Shown: positions 7,189 through 56,610 of the stretch, in pieces | Layout: the number at the start of each line of letters is the position of its first letter | Numbering within the stretch: the first letter of the stretch is position 1 | Virus record (IMG/VR): IMGVR_UViG_3300027985_000286 | Coordinates: 1 to 64,000 of that record | Origin: a virus | Direction: 5' to 3' (one strand) | DNA: 64,000 bases | The notes under the pieces: generated by a model | Seen by the model: the letters and a program-made list of their open reading frames with translations, nothing else | Database searches by the model: none | What the model was told of the DNA's origin: nothing | Translations under genes and position numbers: made by a program

Positions 7189-7190
7189 CA

Positions 7191-7243
7191 GACTAGGGGC
7201 GTTCAAAGCATACTGTTGGAATACGCTTTGAACGCCCCTAGTC
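7191..7243. terminator. Perfect 19-bp inverted repeat between convergent genes
   Basis: Left arm 7191-7209 (GACTAGGGGCGTTCAAAGC) is exactly complementary to right arm 7225-7243, with a 15-base loop. It lies between the stop of a plus-strand gene and the stop of a minus-strand gene. There is no clear U-tract on either side, so it may stop both transcripts or protect their 3-prime ends. Confidence 0.75.
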
Positions 7244-7267
7244 TTGAGGCATCCAGGAATTTGATTC

Positions 7268-8507: not shown

Positions 8508-8518
8508 TGCCGGGTCTC

Positions 8519-9379: not shown

Positions 9380-9390
9380 AGTGTCACCTT

Positions 9391-9420
9391 AAAGATTGGG
9401 TGGGCATTGCGCCCACCCAA
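9391..9420 (-). terminator. Terminator after gene 32
   Basis: On the minus strand TTGGGTGGGC, loop of 5, GCCCACCCAA (10-bp perfect stem), followed by TCTTTAA. It begins 5 bases after the gp32 stop. Confidence 0.8.
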
Positions 9421-9425
9421 CGGTG

Positions 9426-10385: not shown

Positions 10386-10462
10386 GTCTGTTTCCTTTTT
10401 TGAGTTAGTAATCGCTCTCTTGTTGCTAATTGTGCTCTCGGCACAGGCAAACTGAAGCAAGG

Positions 10463-10468
10463 TATTTA
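10463..10468 (-). promoter_or_regulatory. Candidate late promoter before gene 32
   Basis: Minus strand GCTAAATACC, between the gp59 stop and the gp32 start. This would give gp32 late expression independent of the upstream operon. Confidence 0.45.
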
Positions 10469-10480
10469 GCATGAGGAAAA

Positions 10481-11098: not shown

Positions 11099-11364
11099 AG
11101 TGGTAAGGTTGGCTTCTTCTTTGACCGTATAATTCTAGCACCTTCCGCTTCTACGCGCAACCGCTCTTTCAAGGTTTCGTCAACAAGGTGCACAAGGTCG
11201 TCACCGTCAAGATCATGGTCTGCACAAAACACACCAATAGCCTCAATCATGCTCTCTGCTTTCTTTGACTCAACAATCTCCACCAGTTCAAGGTGAAAGC
11301 TTTCTGGTGTGTACACTTTACTCTTGATGTCTTCCTCGATGTCTTTGATGCTAACTTTGCTCAT
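11095..11364 (-). CDS. 33: Late-transcription co-activator gp33
   Basis: Small (89 aa) helical protein immediately upstream of gp59. It has the pattern of gp33 proteins: a short N-terminal helix, an ESMIEAIGVFCADHDLDGD helix-loop, a LKERLRVEAEG helix and a short basic tail. gp33 links gp55-RNA polymerase to the sliding clamp at late promoters. Family assignment rests on these patterns plus the conserved gene order. Its C-terminus (PTLPL) is not the classic clamp-binding tail. Confidence 0.75.
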   Translation of the reverse strand: MSKVSIKDIEEDIKSKVYTPESFHLELVEIVESKKAESMIEAIGVFCADHDLDGDDLVHLVDETLKERLRVEAEGARIIRSKKKPTLPL

Positions 11365-11527
11365 GCTTGATTAGGTTCCCTAGTGTGTCGTATCCTATGA
11401 ACTCACCAAGATGGTACGACACTACGTTCCAGCCACATTTGTTCACGTAGCTCTCGATATTGTTTGTGACGATGTGTCTGAACCAGTCACCGTTAATGTT
11501 CCTACAGATTACTGTCCAGGTTAACAT
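11351..11527 (-). CDS. Small hypothetical protein (58 aa)
   Basis: Start taken at the ATG behind TAGGGGGT; an in-frame GTG lies two codons earlier. A Trp-rich, beta-type small protein. Overlaps gp33 by 14 bases. No family recognised. Confidence 0.55.
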   Translation of the reverse strand: MLTWTVICRNINGDWFRHIVTNNIESYVNKCGWNVVSYHLGEFIGYDTLGNLIKHEQS

Positions 11528-11536
11528 CGTCACCCC

Positions 11537-12265
11537 CTAAAAGATATTGAAGAACGCAAGTTCCTTCTTATCTAGCTTCCCTTCGTAAGCTAATTTAACA
11601 CGTCGGGCCTCACGCATAAAAGGCCCGATAGGCTGTAGGATTGCTCGGCACTTGATATCGTATTCACTGGCCATGATAATGAAGCACTGTTCTGGGGTTT
11701 GTCCGTACCGCTCTTCCCACATCAGGCCGTAAATCCCTGTCTGAATGAGATATTTGAATATCTTCTTCTTTCCCCATTTAGCAAACTGCCCGGCATATCT
11801 GGCAGTCTTAAAGTCTCCGATAGTGAGCTTACTGTTGACGTATCCTACAATGTCTACAGACCCAGCAACACCAACATCGTCGGAGTATAGCGGATATTCA
11901 ACAGCTAGTACCTCGGTGAACTTGTTGATGTGGACACGGGCACGGTTAAAGAGCACACCATACCTAGGGTTATAGTTTTTGACGTCAAACGTGTCTAGTG
12001 TGATGTAATCCTCGCACATCTTGTGGAACGCTGTACCACGGTCTGCAGCATCCATGGTAATACGCTTGGCTTCATCCTCTCCAATCCTCTCGACCCAGTC
12101 TTTAATCCCACCATCATCCATTACTTTCAGGATGGTGGTTGCGCTAGGATAAGAGTTCCCCTCTGGCGTGGTATAGTGGCGCACGCCAGTATCTTGGGTA
12201 ACACAACCGATGCCTTCGAGTCGAGCAGCTGGATTGAATGCAGGCTTTCTTAGGAGGCTCGTCAA
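11537..12265 (-). CDS. PD-(D/E)XK exonuclease
   Basis: RecB/Cas4-like nuclease fold: an early AADRGTAFHKMCEDY helix, then GVAGSVDIVGYV followed by IGDFKTA, giving the D...DxK metal-binding core. The tail helix IQTGIYGLMWEERYG is also family-like. At 242 aa it matches exonucleases found in many T4-like phages. It probably acts on DNA ends in recombination, repair or host DNA degradation. Overlaps its upstream neighbour by 4 bases. Confidence 0.8.
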   Translation of the reverse strand: MTSLLRKPAFNPAARLEGIGCVTQDTGVRHYTTPEGNSYPSATTILKVMDDGGIKDWVERIGEDEAKRITMDAADRGTAFHKMCEDYITLDTFDVKNYNPRYGVLFNRARVHINKFTEVLAVEYPLYSDDVGVAGSVDIVGYVNSKLTIGDFKTARYAGQFAKWGKKKIFKYLIQTGIYGLMWEERYGQTPEQCFIIMASEYDIKCRAILQPIGPFMREARRVKLAYEGKLDKKELAFFNIF

Positions 12266-25024: not shown

Positions 25025-25684
25025 TTACCTGTGGTTGAGTACTGAAGGATATTCGAACCGGCAGTGGCTCTTAGGAGTTTCCCAAAACTCAGCAGCGTAC
25101 ACCTCAAAGACATGGTCTGCAACTGAGTACCCGAGGGAATCGCTATTACTTCTTTTCGAAGATCTCATAGTTCCCATGACGCTGCGTGCAACGTCAAGGA
25201 GAAACTTGGTAAGGTTCTCACTGGTAGGAACGAACGGAACGAAAACCATTCCTTCGAACTTCTCAGCGATTTCTTGTTTGAGAGGACCACCATCCAATAG
25301 CTCGGGGCTGATGCACTTGATATTGTGAGTTCTAGCAATATCGTTGGGGTGAGGTACAACCCATTCGTTGAACGGTTTAGGTACCTCGTGACTGAACAAA
25401 GGATCGTTGATGTCCATAATGAACTTGTGGTCCAGAACATCATCAATAAAGTCCTTCATAAACCCAAGGTGCTTGAAATCTGTTACCATGCCGGTATCGT
25501 CCACATCAGACGAACGCATGAAAATCTTCACACGACCTTGGTGTCCATGAATATGCCTGCACGCTAGACACGTTGAGTTACCAGATGTGAGCTTTGAGTC
25601 AAGCTTTTGAGTCCATACTCGATGGCCATAGCAAAAATCAAAACTCTTGTCGATAGAGAAAATCTGAGTATTCCGAGGCTGCAA
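25025..25684 (-). CDS. queD: 6-carboxytetrahydropterin synthase QueD
   Basis: Second step of 7-deazaguanine synthesis (dihydroneopterin triphosphate to 6-carboxytetrahydropterin). Zinc ligands and catalytic Cys are visible: His21 (CYGHRVW), then Cys42-x3-His46-x-His48 (CRHIHGH). The family GMVTDFKHLG and VLDHKFIMD segments follow. TTG start behind GGAG. At 219 aa it is longer than the common 120-aa enzyme, with an insertion in the middle. It lies about 12 kb from queC in the minus-strand region but shares the pathway with FolE, QueE, QueC and DpdA. Confidence 0.88.
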   Translation of the reverse strand: MQPRNTQIFSIDKSFDFCYGHRVWTQKLDSKLTSGNSTCLACRHIHGHQGRVKIFMRSSDVDDTGMVTDFKHLGFMKDFIDDVLDHKFIMDINDPLFSHEVPKPFNEWVVPHPNDIARTHNIKCISPELLDGGPLKQEIAEKFEGMVFVPFVPTSENLTKFLLDVARSVMGTMRSSKRSNSDSLGYSVADHVFEVYAAEFWETPKSHCRFEYPSVLNHR

Positions 25685-33592: not shown

Positions 33593-36226
33593 TTAGAAAA
33601 AAGACTGGGGAGGACCGTCTCTATCTTCTTCAAGCTTGGGCTTGAACTCTAAGTCCCAACCTATCAGCCCTGCAAAAGACTCGGCAGGCGAGACAAACGA
33701 CTTCTGGAAGATAGTTTCTCTGTCAACATATTGGTGAAGTTTAAACTCAGGAGGCAGTTCCTCTCTGAACGCAATCACATCTACATGATGGTGATTGGGC
33801 TTGAGCATAATATAGCGGATTTTCTCTTTATCTGCAATAGGAGGGATACTCTTAATCTCAAGCTTTCTTAGTATTGCATTATGGTAGATAGACCCCCGAA
33901 TGTGGGCTTGTACGCCCTTCACAGTAGGCATGCCTTTTGAGTCTGAGTACTTCTTGATACCATTTACACCTCTAGGCACTGCAATGGTTTCTACTGGCAT
34001 TGCTTGGTATTCTACCTTAACACCTCTGAAAAGTTCAAAGAGCGCTTCCTGGTCTTTCAGTAGACACGTCATGTACACCTTTTTTAGATACTCTCGCGCC
34101 CACTTTGGCGTAGACGACTTTACCGACTCAAGCCCCTGTACCTTCAAGTCAGGCTCGTAGTACCTAACGCCTTCGTTATCCCAGACTGCCATGGCGTAGT
34201 GTTTCTTTGAACTCCAGATCGCTACCTCTGCAATAGCCTCTCTCTTCATAAAGAGTTTCTGATCGTAACCGTTCAGGTACTCTCTTAAATTCTCGCAGGA
34301 CTGGTTGATAACAGGCTGGATCCTGGTTTCACAGAACTTATCCAGCATGGTAACGATGTCGTTGGTCGACGCTTTGGGGTTGAACTTGGTATACCTGTTG
34401 ACGATGTCACTAAGGTCAACGTACGATGAGTCTGTATCTGAGTATATCCACCTGGACTTTGTATCACCTAACACAGACATCAAGAACTCATCGATATCAC
34501 GAGATGCCCACCTTACTGCAGTCTGCCCACCTGTTGTGATTGCCTCTGCAACATCAATCTTGAAGTATTGGAAGAACTTGTTGGAGATTGCGCCATAACC
34601 AGAGTTCATAGCAATCTTGAGTGCCATCTGCATGGCATCCTTAGCTGCAACTGCGTTTTCGTAGAACTTCTTGTCCTCCTCGGTTGTTGCATCGACCTTC
34701 TTTTGTTTGAGCGCCAGCATCTCTTTCTTCACAACCTTTCTTTGGTTGTAGTAGAACTGCATCATCTCGCTAAGGAACGACCTGAAGTCTCTTCGGTACA
34801 AAGAACCATTAGGTGTAACACACAGGTTCAATGTCTTTGCGTAGTGCAGCAGAGTTTCTGATACCTCTTTGTTGACGCATGTATCAATGCTTACAGCGTC
34901 AATGTCACAGTCAAACTCAGAAGACTTTGCGTACCTAATTGCATCTTGGTCGTTTGACTTCATCAACGCTTGTCTAAAGTCAGACCTAGACACCCAGGTT
35001 TCCGGACCAAGATTCTGGTGCATGATAAGGTGTGGATACAGAGACGCAAAATCGAAAGATACAACCCAACGATACTTCCCTGCCTTAGGCTCCATGACAA
35101 ACCCGCCAGGAAACTCTCGGTATAGCTCTTTATTGGGGAAGACCGGTGGTATCTGTTTCTTGTCAAGGTACAGGTACGAATAGATCGCGTTGGTCCACAA
35201 TCTGGTAGTACCTAGCGTATCTGCGTAGTTTGACATCGTCAAGTAAGACAAAGCATACGTGATGTCTAGATACTTGAGTTTTCTATCTAGCTCAACAACA
35301 AGCTCAACGTCAACGATGTTGTAAACCTGGTAAAGCTGAGGATTCTCTCGTGCTAGATCCTGAAGGTTGTGGTTGCTGTAAGCCACCTTGTTACCTACAC
35401 CTTCTGCCTGAGCAATAAAGCCCAAGCGATACGATTCTCTTGTCAGGTACCTGTGCTTCTTGTAAAGACTGATATAGTCAAGGTCGGTCATACCTACGAT
35501 GTCAATCTTCTTGACCTCGTTTCCAAAATTAACTGTAGTCTCGACAACAAAAACACTCTCGAACGGACTGAGTTTTTTCGCCCATGTTTCACCCAAGACC
35601 TTACAAATGCGGAAGTACAGATACGGAATATCAAAAATCTCTGTATTCCATCCGGTGAAGTTATCGGCATTCATGGATGCCCAGAACTGAACAAATGCAA
35701 CCAATAAGTCGTGCTCACTATCAAACTTCTTATGCACCACGTTCAAGTGGGATATCATCGGGTCACTAGAATCAAAATCATACAGGCTCAGGCAAACGTA
35801 CGTATCTGTGATATTATCGTGTACGGTCAGGAGGTCAACAGGGTACTTTGCTTCTTCTGGATTTGGAAACTCGTCTGCATTAACCTCAATGTCCAAGGTT
35901 AGGGTTCTAATCTTACTCTTATCGTACTCAATCTTTCCGTACCTGTTGCATACCTCTTCCAGAGCAAAATCAGATGTACCGCAAAAGCTAACCCCTTCAA
36001 CACCTTTGTACGACTTCAGGAACTGCGATGCGTCTTTAGCTGAGCTAAAGCTCTTAGGTTTCAGAGATGTTCCGTAATAATCGGTATAACCAGACTCAAA
36101 GCTCGGGTCCCTTTCCCAGATAGTCGGCTCTAGCTCTACTATCACATTCTTTGTGTCTACATCATCCTGTTTTTCTCTTACCAGTACAGTGTTTCCCCAT
36201 CTACGATAGAAAGTGTAAAATGACAA
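33593..36226 (-). CDS. 43: DNA polymerase gp43 (family B)
   Basis: Replicative polymerase with 3-5 proofreading. Exonuclease motif I TLDIEVNADEF (about 112), motif II FTGWNTEIFDIPYL, polymerase motif A SFDFASLYP (about 390), motif B KIAMNSGYGAISN, motif C YSDTDSSY (about 595). 877 aa (T4: 898). The extreme C-terminus is GPPQSFF, where T4-type enzymes carry a sliding-clamp-binding tail. No intein or insert. Confidence 0.95.
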   Translation of the reverse strand: MSFYTFYRRWGNTVLVREKQDDVDTKNVIVELEPTIWERDPSFESGYTDYYGTSLKPKSFSSAKDASQFLKSYKGVEGVSFCGTSDFALEEVCNRYGKIEYDKSKIRTLTLDIEVNADEFPNPEEAKYPVDLLTVHDNITDTYVCLSLYDFDSSDPMISHLNVVHKKFDSEHDLLVAFVQFWASMNADNFTGWNTEIFDIPYLYFRICKVLGETWAKKLSPFESVFVVETTVNFGNEVKKIDIVGMTDLDYISLYKKHRYLTRESYRLGFIAQAEGVGNKVAYSNHNLQDLARENPQLYQVYNIVDVELVVELDRKLKYLDITYALSYLTMSNYADTLGTTRLWTNAIYSYLYLDKKQIPPVFPNKELYREFPGGFVMEPKAGKYRWVVSFDFASLYPHLIMHQNLGPETWVSRSDFRQALMKSNDQDAIRYAKSSEFDCDIDAVSIDTCVNKEVSETLLHYAKTLNLCVTPNGSLYRRDFRSFLSEMMQFYYNQRKVVKKEMLALKQKKVDATTEEDKKFYENAVAAKDAMQMALKIAMNSGYGAISNKFFQYFKIDVAEAITTGGQTAVRWASRDIDEFLMSVLGDTKSRWIYSDTDSSYVDLSDIVNRYTKFNPKASTNDIVTMLDKFCETRIQPVINQSCENLREYLNGYDQKLFMKREAIAEVAIWSSKKHYAMAVWDNEGVRYYEPDLKVQGLESVKSSTPKWAREYLKKVYMTCLLKDQEALFELFRGVKVEYQAMPVETIAVPRGVNGIKKYSDSKGMPTVKGVQAHIRGSIYHNAILRKLEIKSIPPIADKEKIRYIMLKPNHHHVDVIAFREELPPEFKLHQYVDRETIFQKSFVSPAESFAGLIGWDLEFKPKLEEDRDGPPQSFF

Positions 36227-36237
36227 GCTGCACCTCT

Positions 36238-36957
36238 TTATGATAGGCTTTCTATGACTTCTTTTAGTACCATGTGGACTGTTCTTTCCGCTACGTGGTA
36301 ATTATAGGTTTTGGATAGAACAGTAACTCTAGCACAATCTGTGCTGGAAGAAAACATATTGTCCAAGAGGTAAGCAAAGTCTCTCCTCTCTTCTGATAGG
36401 TTCAGCGCGTTATGCGGATTAGCAACCCAAACAAAACCGGCCTTTCCTCTTTTGATATCTTTCTCGTAGTGACCAATAAAGGCTTTGATCTGGTCAATAC
36501 TATCATCTACCAAGATTGGTGCATGTCCGTAAGGCGTGTTCTTTCTGATGAAGTCAACTTTGGTTTCGTACAGAGGAAGGCAATCAATTTCGTCTGGCGG
36601 CTTACACGAAACGGCACTAAATTGAGTTGAGCTGTCAAACGCAGACAGAACATCAACGATGTTATTTTCTCTTAACCTCTTGGTTTTAGTGCTTGACCCA
36701 CAAGAAGATAAGAGGTGCGTACCTTGAAGGTGTCTGGCTAGAACCCTGGAGTTCTCTAGAGTGTTAAGGTTTCCGAAAAATTCGCTTTCGTTGAACTTGC
36801 GGACAGACGCGTCGAATTCTTCTTCACTCAGACCAAATCTAGGTAGCTTGTTTGCGTGCCATCCTAAACACTTATGCTCCACTCCGTTCATATATTCGCG
36901 GATACCTTCTTTCCAGTCAAGGATGGTATCGTCTACATCAATGAATGTTTTGTGCAT
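36238..36957 (-). CDS. HAD-superfamily phosphatase (239 aa)
   Basis: Motif I is FIDVDDT (Asp7, Asp9). HLLSSCGS is motif II, a Lys in YETKVDFI is motif III, and PILVDDSIDQIKAF is motif IV. A helical cap-type insertion lies at about 20-80. Substrate unknown. Lies directly downstream of queC, in a unit starting at the inositol-phosphate synthase, so an inositol-phosphate or modified-nucleotide substrate is a reasonable guess. A (deoxy)nucleotidase is an alternative. Confidence 0.75.
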   Translation of the reverse strand: MHKTFIDVDDTILDWKEGIREYMNGVEHKCLGWHANKLPRFGLSEEEFDASVRKFNESEFFGNLNTLENSRVLARHLQGTHLLSSCGSSTKTKRLRENNIVDVLSAFDSSTQFSAVSCKPPDEIDCLPLYETKVDFIRKNTPYGHAPILVDDSIDQIKAFIGHYEKDIKRGKAGFVWVANPHNALNLSEERRDFAYLLDNMFSSSTDCARVTVLSKTYNYHVAERTVHMVLKEVIESLS

Positions 36958-36970: not shown

Positions 36971-37765
36971 CTAGACTGTTGGCATTTCGGAAATTTCTAC
37001 GGGTGTGATGTTTTTGGTTACAAGGTTTTGCATGTTAAGGTCATCTGTATTCGGGTTCTTTTTCTGCAATAGGTCTGCAATCATTTCTGCAACCTTTTTT
37101 GATTTCAAGGGGTGAACTGCATATTCTTCAAAATCCAGATAAGATCCGGTTGCTTCTCTAAACGTGACAAACCTCTTTAAGCACTGCCAACATTCACCAC
37201 AAGGAACACCATTATGACTATGCCAGCAAGAAGATGACTTCTTGCTGATATCATAAATGCTTACGCCGTGATTCAAGGCCCATCTAACAGCATCAACCTT
37301 AGTCCATCCTCTGTCGGCTAGTGGGAAAACCACTCTGACCTGTTCTTCCTTGAATGGAGACAAGGTGTAGGTTGTAAGACCAGATACCACGTCTCTAAAG
37401 AAGGCGTTCTTATCTGTAGCGTCAATATTTACCTCATCAACCAAAGATCCTAGCCATATCTCATCTGGCAGGAACTGGCAAGCAGCAAGGGTAACAAACA
37501 CTAGGTTTCTCCCTGGAATGTAGATACTACCCTTTAAAGGCTCGCTCTTCTTGGCGACGCAGCCAATACCATTCTTACCCAACCAGTCTACGTTCATGCG
37601 AATAACGTTTAGAGGGAGAAGGGAAACTTCCTCTTTCTCCGATTCTGCTCCGTGCGCATAATAAACGCACACAACATCGTCATCTTTATTTTCTACCTCT
37701 GACAACCTCTTCATTATGAAACTGTCTAGACCACCAGAGTAAAGGATTACAATCTTTTTACGCAT
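36971..37765 (-). CDS. queC: 7-cyano-7-deazaguanine synthase QueC
   Basis: ATP-dependent conversion of 7-carboxy-7-deazaguanine to preQ0. N-terminal PP-loop VILYSGGLDS (6-15), a PGRNLVFVTLAA segment and C-terminal zinc-binding Cys (SSCWHSHNGVPCGECWQC). 264 aa. No glutamine-amidotransferase or ArcS-type domain is fused, so the predicted product is preQ0. Overlaps the upstream HAD gene by 8 bases. Confidence 0.9.
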   Translation of the reverse strand: MRKKIVILYSGGLDSFIMKRLSEVENKDDDVVCVYYAHGAESEKEEVSLLPLNVIRMNVDWLGKNGIGCVAKKSEPLKGSIYIPGRNLVFVTLAACQFLPDEIWLGSLVDEVNIDATDKNAFFRDVVSGLTTYTLSPFKEEQVRVVFPLADRGWTKVDAVRWALNHGVSIYDISKKSSSCWHSHNGVPCGECWQCLKRFVTFREATGSYLDFEEYAVHPLKSKKVAEMIADLLQKKNPNTDDLNMQNLVTKNITPVEISEMPTV

Positions 37766-38138
37766 CGTCGTGTCTCACGTTTTCTTTTTCTACAAGGTTA
37801 TGATGAAGAAGGACGATATTAACCCAAGGGCAAGCCTTCTTTATGATTTCTGCCTGAATCTGGTCATCCTCAAAATGGATATCTATCCGTTTTCCAGAGT
37901 CCTTAAGCATAGTAATCACTTCAGCCTTATGAAGAGCAGAGCTCTCTCTAGTCTTTTGATTGAACGGAAGAGGATTGTAAAACACTCTGTTCGCAATGCC
38001 TAGCCCACCTAGAAATCTTTCTGTTTCGGGCATCTCTTCAAAAGACCTACCTGTGATGATAACGTCAGAGTGACATGGTCGGACCCCAGTCCGACCATGT
38101 CCCATAAAGATTACACCGTCAATATCGAATGAGTTCAT
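37758..38138 (-). CDS. Small HAD-like phosphatase (126 aa)
   Basis: Motif I FDIDGVIF (Asp5, Asp7), a VIITGRSFEEM motif II, Lys in HKAEVI, and IHFEDDQIQAE as motif IV. No cap domain, so it may act on large substrates or be a nucleotidase or polynucleotide phosphatase. Start at the ATG just after the synthase stop; an alternative start lies four codons upstream. Sits between the inositol-phosphate synthase and QueC. Confidence 0.7.
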   Translation of the reverse strand: MNSFDIDGVIFMGHGRTGVRPCHSDVIITGRSFEEMPETERFLGGLGIANRVFYNPLPFNQKTRESSALHKAEVITMLKDSGKRIDIHFEDDQIQAEIIKKACPWVNIVLLHHNLVEKENVRHDDA

Positions 38139-38139
38139 A

Positions 38140-39264
38140 CTAGAACTCATTCGTGAGGTAGTAGGTAGGGATCTCTCTGGCAGCTAGGTACTCACATTCT
38201 GCCTTCGCTTCCGAGTACATCATTTGCATTGGAGGTGTCTTCTGAGTCCACGCGCTAGGTCCACGAAGAGAACCTTTAATGCCCAATTCCTGAGCCACCT
38301 TTAGATACCTGATAGCATCAATAACAACACCCGCAGAATTTTCACTATCTTGGACTGACAGCTTGATATCAACTGTAATCTCAGCCCCTCCGAAAGATTC
38401 AAGGATGACGTTGAAGTAAGCAACCTTATTGTCTTTCAGGTACGGAATAAAGGTACTTGGCCCAGCGAACAACGTATCCTTTTCCATAGGAATACCACGT
38501 ATGTCATTCTGAGCCCTAATGACATTCTCTTTGCTAATCTTCTTGGAAGACAGCCTGTTAGGGTTCATCATGTTGGCGAAGTCTGTATTTCCACCAACAT
38601 TCAGTTGCTGATGGAACTTTACCTTGCACCCTCTGTCAAAGGCGAGCTCCTGAATAACCTGAGACAAGATAGATGCACCAACTTGACTACGCATATCATC
38701 ACCAATAAGAGGAAGACCGGCATCAATAAACCTTTTCTCCCACTCAAGGTTAGACGCAATGAATACTGGAATACAGTTTAAGAAAGGAATACCTGCATCA
38801 ATAGCACTCTGCGCGTAGAACTCAGTACCAACCTGAGACCCCACAGGGAGATAGTTAATGAGCATCTGTGCACCACTGTCTCTGAGGGCTTGAGCTACAT
38901 CAACAGGCTCTTCCTTGGCAATTTTGAAATTGATTGTATCGTGGAAGTTCTCCATATGAAGTGAGACACCATCACAAACTCTACCCATTTGAACCGTACA
39001 CTTGTCATCAATCTGAGTATGAAACACGCGGCAACAGTTGGGCTCTTCGAACATTGCAACATGAAGAGGCTTACCAACCTTTCTTTCATCAACATCAAAA
39101 GCAGCAACTACCTCAATGTCTGTTGGTCCATAACCACCGATGTCTTTAAACATAATACCAGGAAGACTATCCTGATTATTGTGACGATAGTAGTTGATGC
39201 CCTGAATCAGGGCAGATGCGCAGTTACCAACTCCCGCGATAGCAACCTTAATTTTTTCAGACAT
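38140..39264 (-). CDS. ino1: myo-Inositol-1-phosphate synthase (Ino1)
   Basis: NAD-dependent isomerisation of glucose 6-phosphate to inositol 1(3)-phosphate. The protein follows the actinobacterial-type enzyme along its length: VAIAGVGNCASALIQGI (NAD loop), AAFDVDERKVG, INYLPVGSQ, PVFIASNLEWEKRF, GDDMRSQVGA, LNVGGNTDFANM and DSENSAGVVIDAIRYLK. 374 aa is full length. It has its own promoter (39342-39370). A phage Ino1 next to a glycosyltransferase and DpdA suggests that inositol phosphate feeds a modification pathway. Confidence 0.92.
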   Translation of the reverse strand: MSEKIKVAIAGVGNCASALIQGINYYRHNNQDSLPGIMFKDIGGYGPTDIEVVAAFDVDERKVGKPLHVAMFEEPNCCRVFHTQIDDKCTVQMGRVCDGVSLHMENFHDTINFKIAKEEPVDVAQALRDSGAQMLINYLPVGSQVGTEFYAQSAIDAGIPFLNCIPVFIASNLEWEKRFIDAGLPLIGDDMRSQVGASILSQVIQELAFDRGCKVKFHQQLNVGGNTDFANMMNPNRLSSKKISKENVIRAQNDIRGIPMEKDTLFAGPSTFIPYLKDNKVAYFNVILESFGGAEITVDIKLSVQDSENSAGVVIDAIRYLKVAQELGIKGSLRGPSAWTQKTPPMQMMYSEAKAECEYLAAREIPTYYLTNEF

Positions 39265-39341: not shown

Positions 39342-39370
39342 ATAGTAACACTTTCAGAGATACTAGTCAA
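39342..39370 (-). promoter_or_regulatory. Sigma70 promoter for the ino1-HAD-queC unit
   Basis: TTGACT, 17-base spacer, TACTAT on the minus strand. The -35 lies within the last codons of the glycosyltransferase gene. Confidence 0.6.
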
Positions 39371-40691
39371 ACAAAGAGTCTAACGTTCCTCTTTGAGTTG
39401 TTATTTTTGATGCTTTAAACCCAACTCTTGTCAAGGTACTGCCGTTCTTTTCGTTTGTTATGACCAAATTGGTATTGAACCTGTTGTTGGATACGGTTCT
39501 ATAGTCGCCAACGTGACTAAAGCTATCACTTCGTCCTAAACTAGAAAAATAATCATCCAACCTTACTGTTTCTTGAACCGTTGCGAGACCGCCTCTCAGT
39601 GGTCTTGCAACTTTCTCTTGCATGACACCCTCTACAAACCTTAACCAGGTTTCGTCTACATCTCTGGAGTATGATACTGCCTGAGAGTTGTTATAAACTC
39701 TAGAAGAAGCCAGTAGCTGTTTGATTTTCTCTGTAACGCTACTCAATGACTCCAAGTGCGCCCATTTTTCGTGCATTAGCGTCCATGGCATCTCTTTTAG
39801 AACAACAACAGGGCAAGAAAAAGCCTCTTCAATCACACCGTAGCCGAAAGTCTCCATCTTAGCTGGATGGTAAGCCACTTTGGCCTTAGAAATGAAGTCA
39901 ACCTTAGCAGCCCCTGTTAAACTATGTCGAATCTCATACTCCTTAACTCCGTTATCTTCGAGAGACCTTCTGAACTTCTCAGCGCTGGAACCAGATGTCA
40001 TTACTAGAGCTTTGCACTTCAGTTCTTTCACAACTCTAATGAACTCTTCTGGATTTTTTCTATCCTGGTACGTTCCGATAAACAGCAACCCTTCTTTACT
40101 TGGATAGAGGTTCGCGTATTCTAAGGATGGTTCTGCTATGGGTAAAGGAAGGCACACCCCTTTTGATGTTGGTGGTATCAACTTTAGATTATCGTTTGAC
40201 TGACTTCCTATTACCACGTTCTTACTAAGAAGAGACAACAACCATTCTTGGTACGGTCTGTTGAACACTGACTTTTTAGCAAGTAAAACCGATTCCGGGT
40301 TATGGGTGTAGTACACTACTGGAACGTTCAGATCCAAAGATACAATTGGATCAAGAGCCTCTTCATCATTGACAATGATTAAGTCATACACTGATTCTCT
40401 AATAGCGTCAATCAAAGCGTTCCTAAAGTTTACCTGTCTCTCAAAGCAAAGTCCATCACTGAACATGAATATCTTCTTATGGTGGCTATAAGCCAACGGA
40501 TCTTTAGGGCTAACTACCTTGCACTCCTTTTCAACATCTGGGTGCAGTCTTCCTCTCATTAAGGGTGAGTCTACAACAATATCAACAACCCACCCATACT
40601 TCTTCGCCATAAGATGAAACCCCTTGATAAAGGTCCCAACACCACCATTAATAGACAAATATCGATTCGAAACGACCTGACACACTCGCAT
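39363..40691 (-). CDS. GT4 glycosyltransferase with clamp-binding-like tail (442 aa)
   Basis: GT-B fold retaining glycosyltransferase: GGVGTF acceptor loop (16-21), LLFIGTYQDRKNP hinge strand (202-214) and the E-x7-E signature (Glu280-TFGYGVI-Glu288). MshA, which glycosylates inositol 3-phosphate, is a GT4 relative, and the gene lies directly before ino1. A long C-terminal extension (about 360-442) ends TLDSLFD, nearly the same as the DpdA end and like T4 clamp-binding tails; a LDDYF lies inside it. T4 alpha-glucosyltransferase is reported to bind gp45. DNA is therefore the favoured acceptor; inositol phosphate or a carrier is the alternative. Confidence 0.85.
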   Translation of the reverse strand: MRVCQVVSNRYLSINGGVGTFIKGFHLMAKKYGWVVDIVVDSPLMRGRLHPDVEKECKVVSPKDPLAYSHHKKIFMFSDGLCFERQVNFRNALIDAIRESVYDLIIVNDEEALDPIVSLDLNVPVVYYTHNPESVLLAKKSVFNRPYQEWLLSLLSKNVVIGSQSNDNLKLIPPTSKGVCLPLPIAEPSLEYANLYPSKEGLLFIGTYQDRKNPEEFIRVVKELKCKALVMTSGSSAEKFRRSLEDNGVKEYEIRHSLTGAAKVDFISKAKVAYHPAKMETFGYGVIEEAFSCPVVVLKEMPWTLMHEKWAHLESLSSVTEKIKQLLASSRVYNNSQAVSYSRDVDETWLRFVEGVMQEKVARPLRGGLATVQETVRLDDYFSSLGRSDSFSHVGDYRTVSNNRFNTNLVITNEKNGSTLTRVGFKASKITTQRGTLDSLFD

Positions 40692-40699
40692 GGTAACTC

Positions 40700-41983
40700 C
40701 TAGTCAAAGAGATCATCCAGAGACGATACGTTTGCCGCTTTCGTTTCCAGCCTTTGACTGTGAACCTTAGGTCCAATAGTTTTTGACCACTTAATGAATT
40801 CGTTATAGTCAGTAACTTGCAACAAGGTAGATAGAATAGATTGCCCTTCTCTAGACAACCATTTCAATAGGGAAGACTCTTCCCTAAACAAGGAGTTCAC
40901 GTGGTAGGTGAAATTGGCTATACTAGCAAACGCAGCAGCAACCATGAACACATGATATTGTTCAACTCTGTCTTCAGAAGAAAAATAGTCCCAGCTCCTC
41001 TTTGAAGAGTTTGTTGTCAACGACTCAACCACATCGCTCAAAGAAAACCTAGCACCCACATCACCAAAGTACCTTATGATATCCCTATGGTATTCTTCTA
41101 TTACCTTAACGTTGGTTGTTCCATAGAGCTGAAGCTTACCTCTACTGTTTAGGTAAGACCCGTTACTGAGCTTCATGGTATGAGACGTTGAATCGTAAGA
41201 TAGGTGCGTGTTCTGGTTAAGGTAACCAGTTTGATACAAGATAGCAGAGGGGAAAAGCCTAGCGATGCTTCCAACACCCAAAAGGTGCACGTTGGCTTTG
41301 ATGTCTTCCTCACACGGGAGAACAGGTACAGATGCCGCCCTTTCAATAGCTTCAAGAAGACCGTTACCGATAGACGTACCAGCAATTGATACACCTGCAA
41401 TCTGACAGTGCATGTCTATTGGGACCTCTTTAAGAAGAACCTCAACCCAACGTTGAAACCAATAGATCCCATTACCCTGCACGATCATCATAGGCTTGGT
41501 TTTATAGCCATGGGTCCTAAAGTACTCAATCTGAGATGCGAGATTGTACCCTGACTTCTTAGCGTACGAGTCGAAGTTATCTTTATCAAATCTCTTGCTA
41601 TTCAGGTCATTAATGACTGACCGGTTGTTGACTACAACAGGGACCTCATCAAAAGACATTGCGACTGTTGAGTGCTTCCCTTGTTTTTCATAAACAGCCT
41701 GCCTAAGACTGTCAGTAATCATTTTTCCTAGAGTAACGACCTGTAGGCCTCCCGAATCTGCATGTACGCTAGAAACGCTCTTAAATCTGTCATACGCTGC
41801 ACCAAACTTCTTTTCAGTATGCGCGTTGAACAAAATTCCATAACTATGACCGTGCGCTCCTTGTATAGGAGCAAACACCTCTTTGTCAATCCTATCCAAT
41901 ACGCTGTTGTTCTGGTAGCTTCTACTTAGAGCGAACCGGGTATGACCCATTCCTGAAGCAATGTACTCTAGATTAAGTGGCAT
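40700..41983 (-). CDS. dpdA: DpdA-type DNA 7-deazaguanine transglycosylase
   Basis: Exchanges guanine in DNA for a 7-deazaguanine such as preQ0. TGT-fold residues: Asp76 (HADSGGLQ), Asp112 (MSFDE), GVSIAGTS, and the nucleophile candidate Asp264 (LSYDSTS). The tRNA-TGT zinc motif is absent, as expected for phage DpdA. 427 aa, ending SSLDDLFD, a T4-like clamp-binding tail. Flanked by FolE (2-base gap) and the glycosyltransferase (8-base gap). Confidence 0.88.
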   Translation of the reverse strand: MPLNLEYIASGMGHTRFALSRSYQNNSVLDRIDKEVFAPIQGAHGHSYGILFNAHTEKKFGAAYDRFKSVSSVHADSGGLQVVTLGKMITDSLRQAVYEKQGKHSTVAMSFDEVPVVVNNRSVINDLNSKRFDKDNFDSYAKKSGYNLASQIEYFRTHGYKTKPMMIVQGNGIYWFQRWVEVLLKEVPIDMHCQIAGVSIAGTSIGNGLLEAIERAASVPVLPCEEDIKANVHLLGVGSIARLFPSAILYQTGYLNQNTHLSYDSTSHTMKLSNGSYLNSRGKLQLYGTTNVKVIEEYHRDIIRYFGDVGARFSLSDVVESLTTNSSKRSWDYFSSEDRVEQYHVFMVAAAFASIANFTYHVNSLFREESSLLKWLSREGQSILSTLLQVTDYNEFIKWSKTIGPKVHSQRLETKAANVSSLDDLFD

Positions 41984-41985: not shown

Positions 41986-42663
41986 TTAGTTTCGGATTAG
42001 GCTAGTAAACTCTTTTCTAGTACTCTCATTTTCAATGAAAGCACCGTTCAAAGATGTTGAAGTCGTCTCCGATCCAGCATCTTCAATACCCCTCGAAATC
42101 ACGCAATAGTGCTTCGCAGTAATAGACACTGCCACATCATTCGTATCAAGGATGTACTTGAGCGCCTCTGCAATCTGCACAGTAAGCCTCTCTTGAACCT
42201 GAGGCCTGCGTGAGAAGTAGTCCACAATGCGGTTAATCTTGCTCAGGCCAATCACCTTAGCCTTAGGGATATAGGCTACAGTAGCCTTGCCATCAATAGT
42301 AACACCGTGATGCTCACACGCAGACATCACCCGAATGCCACGCTCTACGAGCATCTCATCGTACCCCATCTTATTCTCGATGGTGGTACACTTAGGGAAA
42401 TACTCTGGCTTCAAACCCCAGAACAGCTCGTTGACGAACATCTTAGCAATTCGGTTGGGTGTATCCCTCAGAGAGTCGTCTTGCAGGTCCATGCCTAAGA
42501 TAGACCAGATTGACTTCATGTGAGCACGAATATCTTTAATCTTTTCCTCGTCATCACCTCTTAGATGAGTCTCGATGACAGGGGTTTGCAACTTGAGCTT
42601 TAGGAGGTGCTCTTGAACTCTGAGACCCAGCACCTCATCACACTTAGACTTATCCGGCTTCAT
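41986..42663 (-). CDS. folE: GTP cyclohydrolase I FolE
   Basis: GTP to dihydroneopterin triphosphate, first step to preQ0. Signature segments: RIAKMFVNELFWG, the zinc CEHHG site (MSACEHHGVTIDGKA), AYIPKAKVIGLSKINRIVDYFSRRPQVQERL in its family form, and HYCVISRG. 225 aa. Leads the folE-dpdA-GT unit. Confidence 0.93.
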   Translation of the reverse strand: MKPDKSKCDEVLGLRVQEHLLKLKLQTPVIETHLRGDDEEKIKDIRAHMKSIWSILGMDLQDDSLRDTPNRIAKMFVNELFWGLKPEYFPKCTTIENKMGYDEMLVERGIRVMSACEHHGVTIDGKATVAYIPKAKVIGLSKINRIVDYFSRRPQVQERLTVQIAEALKYILDTNDVAVSITAKHYCVISRGIEDAGSETTSTSLNGAFIENESTRKEFTSLIRN

Positions 42664-43400: not shown

Positions 43401-44282
43401 TTATGTCCCCCAGCTGTTCCCGAACAGGTCAATGTGAAGCCTGGGGCTGTACCGGTAGCCATACTTCATTGCAAGGTTAGCCACAGTGGTTGAATTCTTG
43501 ATGTAGTCTTCATAAGTACCACCAACAGGCATCAGGTACACCGGTACGCTAAACGGTAGTTTGGCATATTCCATGAACTCGCCAACCTCGAACACATCTT
43601 GTTCATCCTGAACAACGAACTTGAGAACTGGTTGTGCTCCGGATTCAAACAACGTATTGACCGCATCGTAAGACCATGCCTTCTCCCTACTCTCTCCAGA
43701 TGCTCTCATCTTCGGTGAGATTGACAGTGTGATGCAATCTAGGTCAATAAGGCTCCCTCCGGCGATTAGAGCACCGTTAACACACCAAAAGTCCGACGGC
43801 CACGCTTGCGTGCCATTCGTCTCAAACGTGATATGCTGAAGTCCGTTCTCACGACAGAGTATGTCAATCGTCTCTAACAGACCTTTAGCGTTCTTCTGAA
43901 GCAGAGGCTCCCCGCCTGTAATAACAAGGTGCGTGTTCTCGTCAAACTGCTCATCAAAGAACAGTCCCCCGTTCACCTCAACAATCTTATATGCTAACTC
44001 CTTAGGGGTCATCTCAGTGCTCATATGCTTGAAACGCTTATCCCAAGCAGCGTAGCTATCACACCCAGTCTTGACAAGAGGAAGATCTTTGATGCTACCA
44101 TATTGATAAAATAGAGCAGCTACGGAGTCACGTTCCTTGGACTTCTGACCTTCAGGCATGCCAAACCCTGCGCACTGAAGATTGCATCCAAAGAGGCGCA
44201 CAAACACCGAAGGAGTGCCTACATGCAGGCCCTCACCTTGAATAGACTTGAACACCTCAACAACAGTTAGATTGCTGCTCAT
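43401..44282 (-). CDS. queE: 7-carboxy-7-deazaguanine synthase QueE (radical SAM)
   Basis: Third enzyme of the preQ0 route. Start at the ATG behind GGAGAAG. VEVFKSIQGEG, then FGCNLQC (Cys33, Cys37), then Cys74 in KTGCDSYAAWD. The third cluster Cys is displaced by a 34-residue insertion relative to the classic CxxxCxxC. HLVITGGEPLLQ, ITFETNGTQ and LSISPKM are the usual later motifs. 293 aa. Confidence 0.88.
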   Translation of the reverse strand: MSSNLTVVEVFKSIQGEGLHVGTPSVFVRLFGCNLQCAGFGMPEGQKSKERDSVAALFYQYGSIKDLPLVKTGCDSYAAWDKRFKHMSTEMTPKELAYKIVEVNGGLFFDEQFDENTHLVITGGEPLLQKNAKGLLETIDILCRENGLQHITFETNGTQAWPSDFWCVNGALIAGGSLIDLDCITLSISPKMRASGESREKAWSYDAVNTLFESGAQPVLKFVVQDEQDVFEVGEFMEYAKLPFSVPVYLMPVGGTYEDYIKNSTTVANLAMKYGYRYSPRLHIDLFGNSWGT

Positions 44283-44790
44283 CTTTCTTCTCCATATACT
44301 TTTCCATGAACTCTTCGTAGCGGATAGACATTGTAGCATGGTACTCACGAGGGTTCATATTACACTTTACTGATGGCTTGCTTGAGTTCGTCAACCCTGC
44401 CGATAGGGTGAAAACCTTCTGCCTACTATGACCTGCTCCCCTACCAGACCAGTACACTACTTCTATGAGTTGCGTCTTGTCTTTATTTAGAATCCTGAAG
44501 ATCTCAGAATCGTTAACTCTAAGGAGTGCAGTACACCTAGCCATCACTTCGATTTGTTTCTGCTTGGGTAAGCAAGACTGCTCTGTGGGATATACCTTGA
44601 TTGTTGAGCCGTCAACAAGGTTGAGGTAATCTGTAAGGCCACCAACAGGACAGTTGGTGTTAGCGTCAATGGTTACGCAGTAGTAACCTGTCTGCTTGTT
44701 TGATTCCTGAATGAATCCAATGCCATCGAAAGCATAGTACAGTTCTGGATATAGAGTTCGTTTCTGTCTAATAGCAACAACTCTTGTCAT
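44257..44790 (-). CDS. Hypothetical protein (177 aa)
   Basis: Overlaps queE by 26 bases. Cys-containing, beta-rich, with a WSGRGAGHSRQKVF segment and a charged C-terminal helix. No family recognised. Confidence 0.6.
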   Translation of the reverse strand: MTRVVAIRQKRTLYPELYYAFDGIGFIQESNKQTGYYCVTIDANTNCPVGGLTDYLNLVDGSTIKVYPTEQSCLPKQKQIEVMARCTALLRVNDSEIFRILNKDKTQLIEVVYWSGRGAGHSRQKVFTLSAGLTNSSKPSVKCNMNPREYHATMSIRYEEFMEKYMEKKDEQQSNCC

Positions 44791-45727: not shown

Positions 45728-46203
45728 GCTCCACCTTCCTTGCGAGCCCGAGCCTTATCAGCTCGCATCATATACTTGGGTTTCAGAGACCAATTCTTCT
45801 TGTCTGCGTAACTAAGAATCTTGATCATACCCAAGTGCGATACATTGGACTCAGCGTCCGCCTTATCGATGAGTTCACACAGTCCCCATTCCTCTAGAAG
45901 AAGTGCGATACGGTTGCGCCGTCCGTAGTCTTCATGCGTCATGGTGGACGGGCGACCATCCTGAGCAAACATTTCCTTGAAGTGCAGGATTGCGTACTCA
46001 CCCTGGCGATGCAGGATGTGGCAACTCTGCCAAAGCACGCTACCCTTTGCAGGCACGCCAATTCGGGTAAGAGACTCCCTGATCTTGTTGAAGTCTTCGT
46101 GGCTCTTCAGCTTGATTCGAATGCCATCGCCGTCAAACACATCGGTTTCAATTCCTTCAACTTCCGCCAGAAGGGTACCGTTGTTAGTCGTATCAGAACT
46201 CAT
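45724..46203 (-). CDS. regA: Translational repressor RegA
   Basis: RNA-binding repressor of early T4 messages. Matches: IRIKLKSHEDFNKIRESLTRIG, seen in two parts (IRIKLKSHEDF, IRESLTRIG), LWQSCHILHRQGEYAILHFKEMF, again in parts (QSCHILHRQGEY, ILHFKEMF), and WGLCELID. 159 aa, longer than T4 RegA (122) by an N-terminal extension and a basic tail. Lies in the conserved 45-44-62-regA order. Confidence 0.93.
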   Translation of the reverse strand: MSSDTTNNGTLLAEVEGIETDVFDGDGIRIKLKSHEDFNKIRESLTRIGVPAKGSVLWQSCHILHRQGEYAILHFKEMFAQDGRPSTMTHEDYGRRNRIALLLEEWGLCELIDKADAESNVSHLGMIKILSYADKKNWSLKPKYMMRADKARARKEGGA

Positions 46204-46592
46204 TTTACTCTGCCTCCAACGTTCATTCTCTGCTTAATGTCGTCAATTTGCTCTTTAGTTAAAACCTTAAGAGCATCAACTGCCTTTGCCTTACTGTAAC
46301 CGTAATAACGCATAACAACGTCCAAATCATCGTATGCTGACTTTTTAGCCCACTTTCCTCTGCGTCTCTTCGACCGGATTGAGTTAAAAAGGTAGTCGAA
46401 GTGCATCTGCTTACTTACCAAAGGATGCTTATTCATCTCATTGGCATACAAGATCGTATCTACGTGTTGACTCAAAGCTTGCACGATGATAAAAGGATCG
46501 TAGGTCCTAACGTTGTCTTCTCCGTTTTCGCCCCTAGTAGCATCAACCTTAGTAAACGTAATCGAGTCTAGGATCTCAAACAAGTCAGCCAC
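46200..46592 (-). CDS. 62: Clamp loader small subunit gp62
   Basis: Partner of gp44. Start GTG at 46592, because GGAAGG lies six bases before it at the end of gene 44; a TTG six codons upstream lacks a ribosome site. LYANEMNKHPLVSKQMHFDYLF and a basic SIRSKRRRGKWAKK patch are family-like. About 130 aa (T4: 187). Confidence 0.85.
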   Translation of the reverse strand: MADLFEILDSITFTKVDATRGENGEDNVRTYDPFIIVQALSQHVDTILYANEMNKHPLVSKQMHFDYLFNSIRSKRRRGKWAKKSAYDDLDVVMRYYGYSKAKAVDALKVLTKEQIDDIKQRMNVGGRVK

Positions 46593-46593
46593 G

Positions 46594-47550
46594 TTAAGCC
46601 TTCCACTCAACAGAGGCCATTAAGGAAACCGCTAGGGCAACCAAATGAACCTCCTTGCTTGGAACAATACCATCAAACCGTTGGTACTCTTCAAGGGTCA
46701 AGATAACCTCAGGAATTGACGAAGGCTTAACCTTCTCGTAGAGAACCTTATAGAGACCCTCGTAGATAGCAGACGTGTCGTACCCTGATGTGTCCGCTGC
46801 CCACTGTCGAATCTCTTTGAAGTCTCTATTCTTCATTAGCTCAACAAGCTTGTCAACGTTAGAACCTTTGAGTGCCTCAAGGATACCAACGTCAATTTTC
46901 CCGCTCTTAGCGTAGCTGTTAAGCTCTGTAAGGACCTTACGGTTATCGGGGAAATAACGCTGGATAACTGCAGCAACCACTTTCTTATCGTGCACAACAC
47001 CTTCCAGTTCCAGAATCTGGATAGTCCTCTTCATCAGCTGAAGAGCAAGCGGTGCTTTCTCAGTTGACGGGATTGAGAAATCAATCTGCTTCAACCGAGA
47101 GCGAAGAGGTTCGATAATAAGATTGGGATAGTTGCAGGTGAAGATAAAGCTACAGTTCTTGCTGAACTCTTCAATCGCAGACCTCAAGGCAGGCTGAGTA
47201 GAGTTCTTCTGTAGGTGGTCAGCCTCATCAAGGATTACAACCTTGCCGTTACCTGTTAGGCTGGTGGTAGATGCAAACTGCCTAATCTTGGTACGTAGTA
47301 CATCAATACCACTATCTTCTGATGCTGGAATAAACATCCAATCGCAGTCCAGCTCGTTACACAGAGCTTTCGCAGCAGTTGTCTTGCCAGTTCCCGGCGG
47401 TCCTGACAGAAGTAGATTGGGCATTCTACCGCTATCTACAATAGAGAGCATTAGCCCAGATGTTGCAGCTGGAAGGATGCAGTCTTTGATTGTTGCTGGT
47501 CTATACTTTTCTGTCCAAAGGTGTTCGTTTTCGTTAAATGAAATCGTCAA
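46594..47550 (-). CDS. 44: Clamp loader ATPase gp44
   Basis: AAA+ subunit that loads gp45. TTG start at 47550 behind GGGGAG, giving MTISFNENEHLWTEKYRP, a T4-like N-terminus. Walker A GPPGTGKT (50-57), Walker B LDEADHL (108-114), and an Arg finger region LRSRLKQ. 318 aa (T4: 319). Confidence 0.93.
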   Translation of the reverse strand: MTISFNENEHLWTEKYRPATIKDCILPAATSGLMLSIVDSGRMPNLLLSGPPGTGKTTAAKALCNELDCDWMFIPASEDSGIDVLRTKIRQFASTTSLTGNGKVVILDEADHLQKNSTQPALRSAIEEFSKNCSFIFTCNYPNLIIEPLRSRLKQIDFSIPSTEKAPLALQLMKRTIQILELEGVVHDKKVVAAVIQRYFPDNRKVLTELNSYAKSGKIDVGILEALKGSNVDKLVELMKNRDFKEIRQWAADTSGYDTSAIYEGLYKVLYEKVKPSSIPEVILTLEEYQRFDGIVPSKEVHLVALAVSLMASVEWKA

Positions 47551-47601
47551 AACACATACTCCCCGCAATGTGCCCTCCCTGGCACTGTCCATCTCAACGC
47601 T

Positions 47602-47631
47602 ATTATACGTTGAATTCGCTGCTATCTGCAA
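47602..47631 (-). promoter_or_regulatory. Sigma70 promoter before gene 44
   Basis: TTGCAG, 18-base spacer, consensus TATAAT on the minus strand, overlapping the end of gene 45. Confidence 0.55.
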
Positions 47632-48307
47632 CAGCCATCACATAAACAATCGGCTGGTTTTTGTTGATAAAGAGCGCAATGAGAGAACCTTTACGCTTTG
47701 CGATCTTAACAGTATAGTCCCCACCAAGCATCTTGAGGTTGTCAGAGTCAAAGACAATCTTGAACACCTTATCAGACGAACATAGCTTAGTCTTGAATGA
47801 ATTGCCCTTGCTTCCTGTGTCCAACTTCACATCTAGCGCAGTAAATGAAATATCCGATCCGTCACCAACAAACGCAAGGTTAGGAAGCTTCAGTGTAGCC
47901 GACGCGCGATAAGCAGCAACAAGCTTATCGTTGCCCAAGTCAAACTCAACAAGAATCTCATCAGGTACCAGATCTCTATCGGAGAATCCAGTAATCATTC
48001 GCTCATCTGCCATGTGGTACTTAATGGCAAGCTCTCCCTTCTGGTCCTGAATTGACAGGAAATCGTCGTCGACGAACTCAATAAGAGGAGACTCGACCAA
48101 AGAAAGAACAGACAAGAGTTCCATAATGTCGTACACCACAAAGTTGCCCGGGAAGGCACCAACCTTTGCAGTGAGCATGAGGGTATTATCAGGGCTCTTA
48201 ACACGAAGAATATCAGAGTCCTTCTTAATCATCACGTTACGATGAATCGTGCCTGCATTTTTGAGAATATCAAACAGCTCTTTTGTTACCTTTACCTGAC
48301 TAGTCAT
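47603..48307 (-). CDS. 45: Sliding clamp gp45
   Basis: Processivity clamp and late-transcription coactivator. 234 aa (T4: 228), two beta-clamp domains; SQVKVTKELFDILKNAGTI at the start and KIVFDSDNLKMLGGDYTVKI near the end are family-like (shown in short form). Its presence makes the clamp-binding-tail hypothesis for DpdA and the GT testable within one genome. Confidence 0.9.
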   Translation of the reverse strand: MTSQVKVTKELFDILKNAGTIHRNVMIKKDSDILRVKSPDNTLMLTAKVGAFPGNFVVYDIMELLSVLSLVESPLIEFVDDDFLSIQDQKGELAIKYHMADERMITGFSDRDLVPDEILVEFDLGNDKLVAAYRASATLKLPNLAFVGDGSDISFTALDVKLDTGSKGNSFKTKLCSSDKVFKIVFDSDNLKMLGGDYTVKIAKRKGSLIALFINKNQPIVYVMAVADSSEFNV

Positions 48308-55676: not shown

Positions 55677-55960
55677 TCTTTGCCTACCTTACGTCTCGCC
55701 CAATGGTAGATATCCGTCTTTGAGTGAGCAAGCATCTCGTTCAGGAGCTGAACGATAACTTCAGCTCCCTTAACCGAAAACAGAGACATAACCGCCGAGT
55801 GTTCAAAGTCGGCATTGTTTTGCAGCTCTCCGTAATGCACACTCACCCGATAGTTGTACCGCCGACTTTCCGAGTTCTTTAGCAGCACAGTTGGACCGTG
55901 ATTGTAGATATCGAAGCAGAACTTGTAGAACATGCTAGGCGTGACAGTTTTCATTTTCAA
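55673..55960 (-). CDS. Hypothetical protein between gp55 and gp47 (95 aa)
   Basis: Beta-rich N-terminal half with several Tyr, then a helical basic C-terminus. 4-base overlaps with both neighbours. No family recognised. Confidence 0.65.
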   Translation of the reverse strand: MKMKTVTPSMFYKFCFDIYNHGPTVLLKNSESRRYNYRVSVHYGELQNNADFEHSAVMSLFSVKGAEVIVQLLNEMLAHSKTDIYHWARRKVGKE

Positions 55961-56610
55961 TCCTCCAGAATTGCATCAAGACCAACCTTGGGTGGAGTAG
56001 TCTCACTCCCCTCATCAACTGCAGCCTTAGGCTTCTTGCCTCCGTACGCAGGACTATTTTCAAAATGATCAACAAACTTCAAGGCATCTACAAACTGGTC
56101 TGATAGTACAGACCCACCCATTATAGCAAAGTCTTCGTCGTCCTGCACAGCAGAAAAGCCGCCATTTTCAACGAAAAGCTTATACCGTATGTACTGCTTG
56201 GTTTTTTCCTCTTTGATCTTTTTGATAAAAGCAGTCCTAACAGTCTGAGTAATGTACGCAAACGGGTTCCTAGACTCAGACGGGTTAAAGGCTCGGGTAT
56301 ACCTCACACAAGCTTCAATGGCATTACCTATCATATCCTCTTTCCATGAGCTGGTATATCCACGAAAGAGATGATGGTTTGAGTAGCCTTGCGCTATAAG
56401 GATGAAAGCCTCTCCCATGTACTCCGTCATCTTAGGCATTTCATCAATCAAGCCTTGCTTGTATTTCTGATACTCTCCGTGGAACCAAACATAGTCTTGG
56501 TACAAACGCTCGTTGTCTATGTAGTGTCGAGTCTCTCTTAGCCCTCTAACGACTTCTTCATCCACTTTATCTGGTTCCATCGTAACTGACTTCACGATGG
56601 CTTTCTTCAA
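55957..56610 (-). CDS. 55: Late sigma factor gp55
   Basis: Directs host RNA polymerase to late promoters. TTG start behind AGGAGAA. Sigma-2-like helix with RNPFAYITQTVRTAFIKKIKEE (given in parts: NPFAYITQTV, IKKIKEEK). C-terminus GLDAILED fits a hydrophobic clamp-binding tail. 217 aa (T4: 185). Confidence 0.88.
   Translation of the reverse strand: MKKAIVKSVTMEPDKVDEEVVRGLRETRHYIDNERLYQDYVWFHGEYQKYKQGLIDEMPKMTEYMGEAFILIAQGYSNHHLFRGYTSSWKEDMIGNAIEACVRYTRAFNPSESRNPFAYITQTVRTAFIKKIKEEKTKQYIRYKLFVENGGFSAVQDDEDFAIMGGSVLSDQFVDALKFVDHFENSPAYGGKKPKAAVDEGSETTPPKVGLDAILED

Follow-up and report, generated by a model that had tools for sequence, protein, structure and literature searches.

In bacteriophage T4, the C-terminal tails of the DNA polymerase gp43 (SLDFLFG), the late sigma factor gp55 (SLDFLYEAND) and gp33 (TLDFLL) are hydrophobic-acidic peptides that bind the sliding clamp gp45 and are interchangeable (reviewed in PMC2988020). 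The T4 ligase carries a TFEDVF peptide near its end, and PMC7892883 cites a crystal structure (PDB 6DRT) in which this ligase motif is seen with gp45. The residues that line the peptide pocket of T4 gp45 have been named (PMC3012046). A phage enzyme that modifies DNA has also been connected to this clamp, since a 2026 study showed that the T4 alpha-glucosyltransferase (alpha-GT) co-purifies with gp45, and concluded that the enzyme contributes to glucosylation according to its expression and not according to its binding to the clamp (PMC13216743). The role of this contact, which bears on when and where phages modify their own DNA, is disputed. For the transglycosylases of the DpdA group, a homologue in phage nt-1 has been named DpdA2 (PMC6884629).

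Organization of the dpdA locus

We analyzed a stretch of 64,000 nucleotides (hereafter the window) taken from a virus contig of 149,348 bp. The features on which the analysis relies are the following:

25025-25684, minus strand: QueD-like (PTPS) protein
33593-36226, minus strand: gp43 DNA polymerase, ending in PPQSFF (Pfam DNA_pol_B; alignment; DNA read)
36971-37765, minus strand: QueC-like protein
38140-39264, minus strand: inositol-3-phosphate synthase (INO1), mycothiol type
39363-40691, minus strand: GT4-like glycosyltransferase (GT) with a GT-B fold, 442 aa
39366-39386 (codons), minus strand: C-terminal, clamp-binding-like tail TLDSLFD of the GT, within residues 426-442 of pLDDT <50 and kept in homologues
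40700-41983, minus strand: DpdA2-type DNA-guanine transglycosylase, 427 aa (PHROG 10773 match)
40703-40723 (codons), minus strand: C-terminal, clamp-binding-like tail SLDDLFD of DpdA, with F426 invariant in 36 alignment rows
41986-42663, minus strand: FolE, GTP cyclohydrolase I of the preQ0 pathway
43401-44348, minus strand: QueE-like radical SAM protein, start codon uncertain
46200-46610, minus strand: gp62 clamp-loader subunit (T4 gp62 profile, E 5.2e-42)
46594-47631, minus strand: gp44 clamp-loader subunit, between gp45 and gp62 (AAA+ sequence, by inspection)
47603-48307, minus strand: gp45 sliding clamp, proposed partner of the tails (PHROG 223, E 1.7e-42; T4 gp45 profile, E 2.6e-74)
55957-56610, minus strand: gp55 late sigma factor with the weak tail variant VGLDAILED (T4 gp55 profile, E 1.3e-55)

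FolE, DpdA, GT and INO1 are encoded consecutively in a run of minus-strand genes, and the gap between the GT and DpdA genes is 8 nt long with a GGAG inside. The genome of this DpdA holds the preQ0 gene set (FolE, QueC, QueD and QueE), and the record encodes a T4-type replisome composed of gp43, gp44/62, gp45, gp32, gp55, gp33 and UvsX. The assignment of gp45 made in an earlier note on this DNA was confirmed by both the PHROG and the T4 profile matches. Small genes located between those of QueC, INO1 and the polymerase (37758-38150 and 36238-36957) match phrog_415 (polynucleotide kinase) and phrog_420 (unknown function).

DpdA gave no Pfam or NCBIfam match. Its relatives were found in KVP40/nt-1 and in phage X1, and its structural model has a TGT fold, with TGTs matched at E of about 1e-7 and DpdA 7ui4 at E 3.2e-6, at global TM-scores of only 0.37-0.57. 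The candidate catalytic aspartates D76, D112 and D264 were invariant in three alignments. The GT was modelled by AlphaFold2 as a GT-B fold (pLDDT 82.6) whose top Foldseek matches were OtsA, MshA, BshA and PimA, and its residues E280 and E288 form an invariant EX7E pair. Because the Pfam GT4 models PF00534, PF13692 and PF13439 all scored below their gathering thresholds, the protein is filed as GT4-like only.

GT and DpdA share a C-terminal tail

The GT ends in ...ITTQRGTLDSLFD, with GTLDSLFD as last residues, and DpdA in ...KAANVSSLDDLFD, with SSLDDLFD as last residues. The earlier note had reported a common tail on two neighbouring proteins of unrelated fold, and indeed both minus-strand open reading frames exist with these ends, one encoding a GT-B enzyme and the other a TGT/TIM barrel. 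The strict motif [ST]-L-[DE]-x-[LF]-F, with no more than two residues after it, was present at the C-terminus of 18 out of 1,966 proteins of at least 80 aa, taken from non-overlapping predicted ORFs of 11 T4-type genomes (about 99 kb of T4 and 10 genomes that encode these enzymes or relatives), and all 18 were DNA polymerases (8), DpdA proteins (6) or GTs (4). The count was run on 20-kb pieces and left out a few genes that lie at piece ends or overlap others, such as that of the DpdA of Stenotrophomonas phage IME-SM1, which itself ends in SLDDLFG. Shuffled tails matched at a rate of 2.0e-5 per protein, equivalent to 0.04 expected matches. With a looser pattern, exactly two of the 211 predicted ORFs of the own genome matched, and these were the neighbouring GT and DpdA. 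The likeness of the tails is thus more than chance would give. That short hydrophobic C-termini became alike by chance, or because neighbouring genes exchanged them, might be argued from the adjacency of the genes and from a motif with only about six informative positions; nevertheless, the excess of 18 over 0.04, the gene order (DpdA-GT here and GT-DpdA elsewhere), the presence of the tail on the non-adjacent polymerase of phage BUCT-ZZ01 and the dissimilar linkers of the different proteins make this explanation highly improbable, and chance similarity was rejected. In sum, the tail is genuine, kept among homologues and selective for these proteins.

Conservation of the tail in homologues

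To describe the tails in other phages, 80 IMG/VR loci with DpdA relatives (kept from 374 found) and 47 loci with GT relatives were used. The tail is retained although the homologues are only about 28-37% identical to the enzymes of the window. In its loose form, the tail or a near variant was present in about 44 of 54 distinct DpdA tails and in 27 of 32 GT tails; after thinning for redundancy, the strict motif was found in 31 of 48 DpdA and 11 of 23 GT proteins, with near variants in most others. F426 of DpdA is invariant in 36 alignment rows, and F441 of the GT is nearly invariant in 21. The linkers that precede the tails vary in length and sequence, also between DpdA and GT, and in both families the information content, anchored on the final F, was low in the linker and rose sharply at L, E/D, L and F. 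AlphaFold2 assigned a pLDDT of about 54 to the last block of DpdA and placed a short helix at the extreme C-terminus of both proteins; from these models, the linkers are probably disordered. A flexible and variable linker of this kind also precedes T4-type clamp-binding motifs.

The distribution of the tail was broad and at the same time incomplete. Most relatives carry the motif or a near variant, but the motif is absent from the DpdA proteins of KVP40, pf16 and the L013 group, so that DpdA in itself does not depend on the motif. The GT relative of Xanthomonas phage X1 (L007, 4713-6029), whose gene adjoins NAD-salvage genes and lies far from dpdA, has no tail either. Conversely, DpdA is tailed without a neighbouring GT in ACP17, X1, IME-SM1 and the phage of record G006.

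Similar endings were observed in other proteins. DpdA proteins of 9g-type siphophages (L246-L252) end in LQDLFDE, EQRLF, PGLF or QGFF, and the 9g dpdA gene adjoins a clamp gene; in these phages, too, a terminal LF is possibly a clamp motif. The gp26-like baseplate hub chaperones of several phages end in G-L-x-x-F-F, a similar-looking conserved tail with G before L (L003, 13102-13863; L209, 4546-5328; L151, 7844-8554; L268, 17416-18132). A general rule by which T4-like modification enzymes carry the tail was rejected, given that CmoX, CmoY and CmoA of Synechococcus phage S-B43 have none.

The tails resemble those of the polymerases of the same phages

The earlier note had likened both tails to the gp45-binding C-termini of T4-type polymerase and of gp55/gp33, and this agrees with PMC2988020, with PMC7892883 and with the polymerase tails of the relatives. 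In BUCT-ZZ01 the polymerase ends in STLDDFFS, DpdA in ASLDSFFD and the GT in GSLEDFFND. The polymerase and DpdA tails are SLDDLFE and TLDELFE in ACP17, SLESLFG and SLEELFG in X1, and TVDDLFG and TVDSLFD in the phage of record L018. In jumbo phages, the GT ends in SDLFSW or ESLFEW and the polymerase in NDLFSF or DTLFSFG. Genome-specific peculiarities are shared between proteins: FF replaces LF in all three BUCT-ZZ01 proteins, V replaces L in both L018 proteins, a terminal E is present in the two ACP17 proteins, and LFS[FW] is common to the polymerase and the GT of jumbo phage L107. In a label-permutation test, tails matched the polymerase of their own phage better than others (p 0.015-0.02 for polymerase and DpdA; p 0.005-0.046 for polymerase and GT), a result that is confounded by shared ancestry.

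The phage under study is an exception, as its polymerase ends in PPQSFF, its gp55 in GLDAILED and its gp33 in KPTLPL. The PPQSFF end stands where relatives keep LxxLF, and may be either a Q..FF PIP-like variant or a loss. A search for close relatives in which to compare the polymerase tail gave only two distant loci, and none when the GT of this phage alone was used as query. This phage and most relatives encode gp45; in the jumbo-phage records G007 and G010 none was detected. The own gp45 is only 20% identical to that of T4, and in an alignment at this level of identity the named pocket residues are kept, and are hydrophobic, only in part (Y39>L, I107>L, F109>P, W199>A, V217>V).

Proposed tethering of DpdA and GT to gp45

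Taken together, the most satisfactory explanation, and one that we consider likely from sequence comparison, is that the tails are T4-type clamp-binding motifs that tether DpdA and the GT to gp45. The S/T-L-D/E-x-L-F tails, on their flexible linkers, would dock in the hydrophobic peptide pocket of the phage's gp45 in the way that the tails of T4 gp43, gp55, gp33 and ligase dock on theirs. DpdA, which would exchange guanine for preQ0 or a related 7-deazaguanine, and the GT, which would transfer a sugar, would then be held on clamps on replicating or newly replicated duplex. Binding of the tails to gp45 as such appears likely; for a measurable benefit of tethering to modification we consider the chances even. 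Coupling of modification to replication is what we infer from such tethering, bearing in mind that the contact of T4 alpha-GT with gp45 does not set the extent of glucosylation (PMC13216743).

Instead of gp45, the tails could bind a different hub, namely the partners of the acidic gp32 tail or the beta clamp of the host, or one tail could bind the other. The tip of gp32 is also acidic-hydrophobic (DLDDLLNDL in T4, DDDMAFFASL here), and peptides ending in LF are known among the ligands of the beta clamp. However, in the same genomes gp32 ends in ESLSYFSKLASDD or a similar sequence, which differs from S-L-E-x-L-F, and mimicry of the gp32 tail is disfavoured on this ground. The beta-clamp pentamer requires Q at its first position (QxxLF), where these tails have L, and the polymerases carry the same motif. 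Moreover, since DpdA is tailed in phages in which no GT relative was found, the tail does not serve contact between DpdA and GT. Another hub is thus unlikely, and gp45 is the preferred partner.

The earlier note had also invoked T4 alpha-GT as a precedent, and here only one part held. Binding of this enzyme to gp45 is documented (PMC13216743 and a 2004 study cited there), but the enzyme ends in EQFDIITK; it does not use this tail and was rejected as a tail-sharing precedent. As a whole, that first reading was supported for the tails, their likeness to T4 and the gp45 gene, and not supported for alpha-GT as a tail precedent or for the polymerase of this phage.

Possible acceptor of the GT

The GT family is essentially viral, as in one scan that covered 84,980 genomes of bacteria and archaea it was found only as fragments in a single assembly. 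Among 60 GT loci (a redundant set), 47 also encode DpdA, directly adjacent in 45 of them, and in 43 of these 45 pairs the order is GT-DpdA with a 4-nt overlap. The opposite order, DpdA-GT, in this phage shows that the pairing survived rearrangement. Independently of the tail, DNA as the acceptor is supported by the adjacency to DpdA, by the restriction of the family to viruses and by its occurrence in clusters with preQ0 genes; the argument of the earlier note that the shared tail backs a DNA substrate is consistent with this and supportive without being a proof. Against DNA, the nitrile of preQ0 has no hydroxyl, no DpdA or TGT was found in the GT-bearing jumbo phages, and the adjacent INO1, a rare gene in the group (2 of 23 records), could provide another acceptor. 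On the comparative evidence, we favour DNA as the probable acceptor, with reservations.

The tails might bind gp45 while the acceptor of the GT is a small molecule (for instance inositol phosphate, as in an MshA-like reaction) or another compound that is not DNA. The mycothiol-type INO1 gene that adjoins the GT gene (38140-39264) could supply an MshA-like acceptor, and the GT has MshA and PimA among its nearest structural matches. On the other side, INO1 was absent from 21 of the 23 related phage records searched, IME-SM1 has INO1 and DpdA with no GT match, the GT directly adjoins DpdA in 45 of the 60 loci, a jumbo phage retains the GT together with FolE/QueD/QueE and an NDP-sugar epimerase, and a clamp tail is hard to justify for a soluble acceptor. 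We regard a non-DNA acceptor as doubtful and DNA as the better candidate.

INO1 was also observed in the DpdA clusters of IME-SM1 (62% identical) and G011/L123 (56%), listed with L257 and L258. It is much more conserved across these clusters than DpdA (about 30%). The region 5607-12168 of jumbo phage L121 encodes IMPDH/GMP reductase, FolE, QueD, a phosphoribosyltransferase, QueE, the GT and an NDP-sugar epimerase. No DpdA or TGT was found in the GT-bearing jumbo phages, including the L121 record, and this cluster possibly serves a DpdA-independent incorporation plus glycosylation.

A fuller scheme can be put forward tentatively, with the odds somewhat against it: in many T4-type phages hypermodification would be clamp-borne, with a DpdA2 tethered to gp45 that replaces G by a 7-deazaguanine and a virus-specific GT, likewise tethered to gp45, that then glycosylates this base. 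To our knowledge, a glycosylated 7-deazaguanine has not been described so far as a DNA base.

Comparison with known systems

As a short peptide that can be removed, that two unrelated modifying enzymes conserve and that is identical in type to the polymerase tail, the proposed tether makes the coupling to replication testable by a one-residue change. Adjacency and the shared tail also mark the members of an uncharacterized, virus-specific GT family as probable glycosyltransferases acting on DNA in the 7-deazaguanine pathway. In the literature searched, which included few subscription journals, no work linking DpdA to a clamp motif was found.

The tails of the window resemble the motifs of T4 gp43, gp55, gp33 and ligase gp30 in being a [ST]-[LF]-[DE]-x-[LV]-[FYL] peptide at or near the C-terminus on a flexible linker. 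The carriers in T4 replicate, seal or transcribe DNA, whereas those found here are DNA-modification enzymes, and in contrast to T4 the polymerase of this phage has no canonical tail. DpdA is homologous to DpdA2 of nt-1/KVP40, with which it shares the TGT fold and the accompanying FolE/QueD/QueE/QueC genes (PMC6884629); KVP40 DpdA has no tail, while the tailed forms often adjoin a GT. T4 alpha-GT offers another case of a clamp-associated glycosyltransferase from a phage (PMC13216743), but it must contact gp45 through a site other than the tail seen here, and no T4 GT family appeared among the Pfam, PHROG or top-50 Foldseek matches of the GT. Finally, in eukaryotes a PIP-type motif recruits the DNA-modifying enzyme DNMT1 to the sliding clamp PCNA (PMC9690074), a comparable arrangement in which, however, enzymes and clamp are unrelated to those of the phage and DNMT1 maintains methylation.
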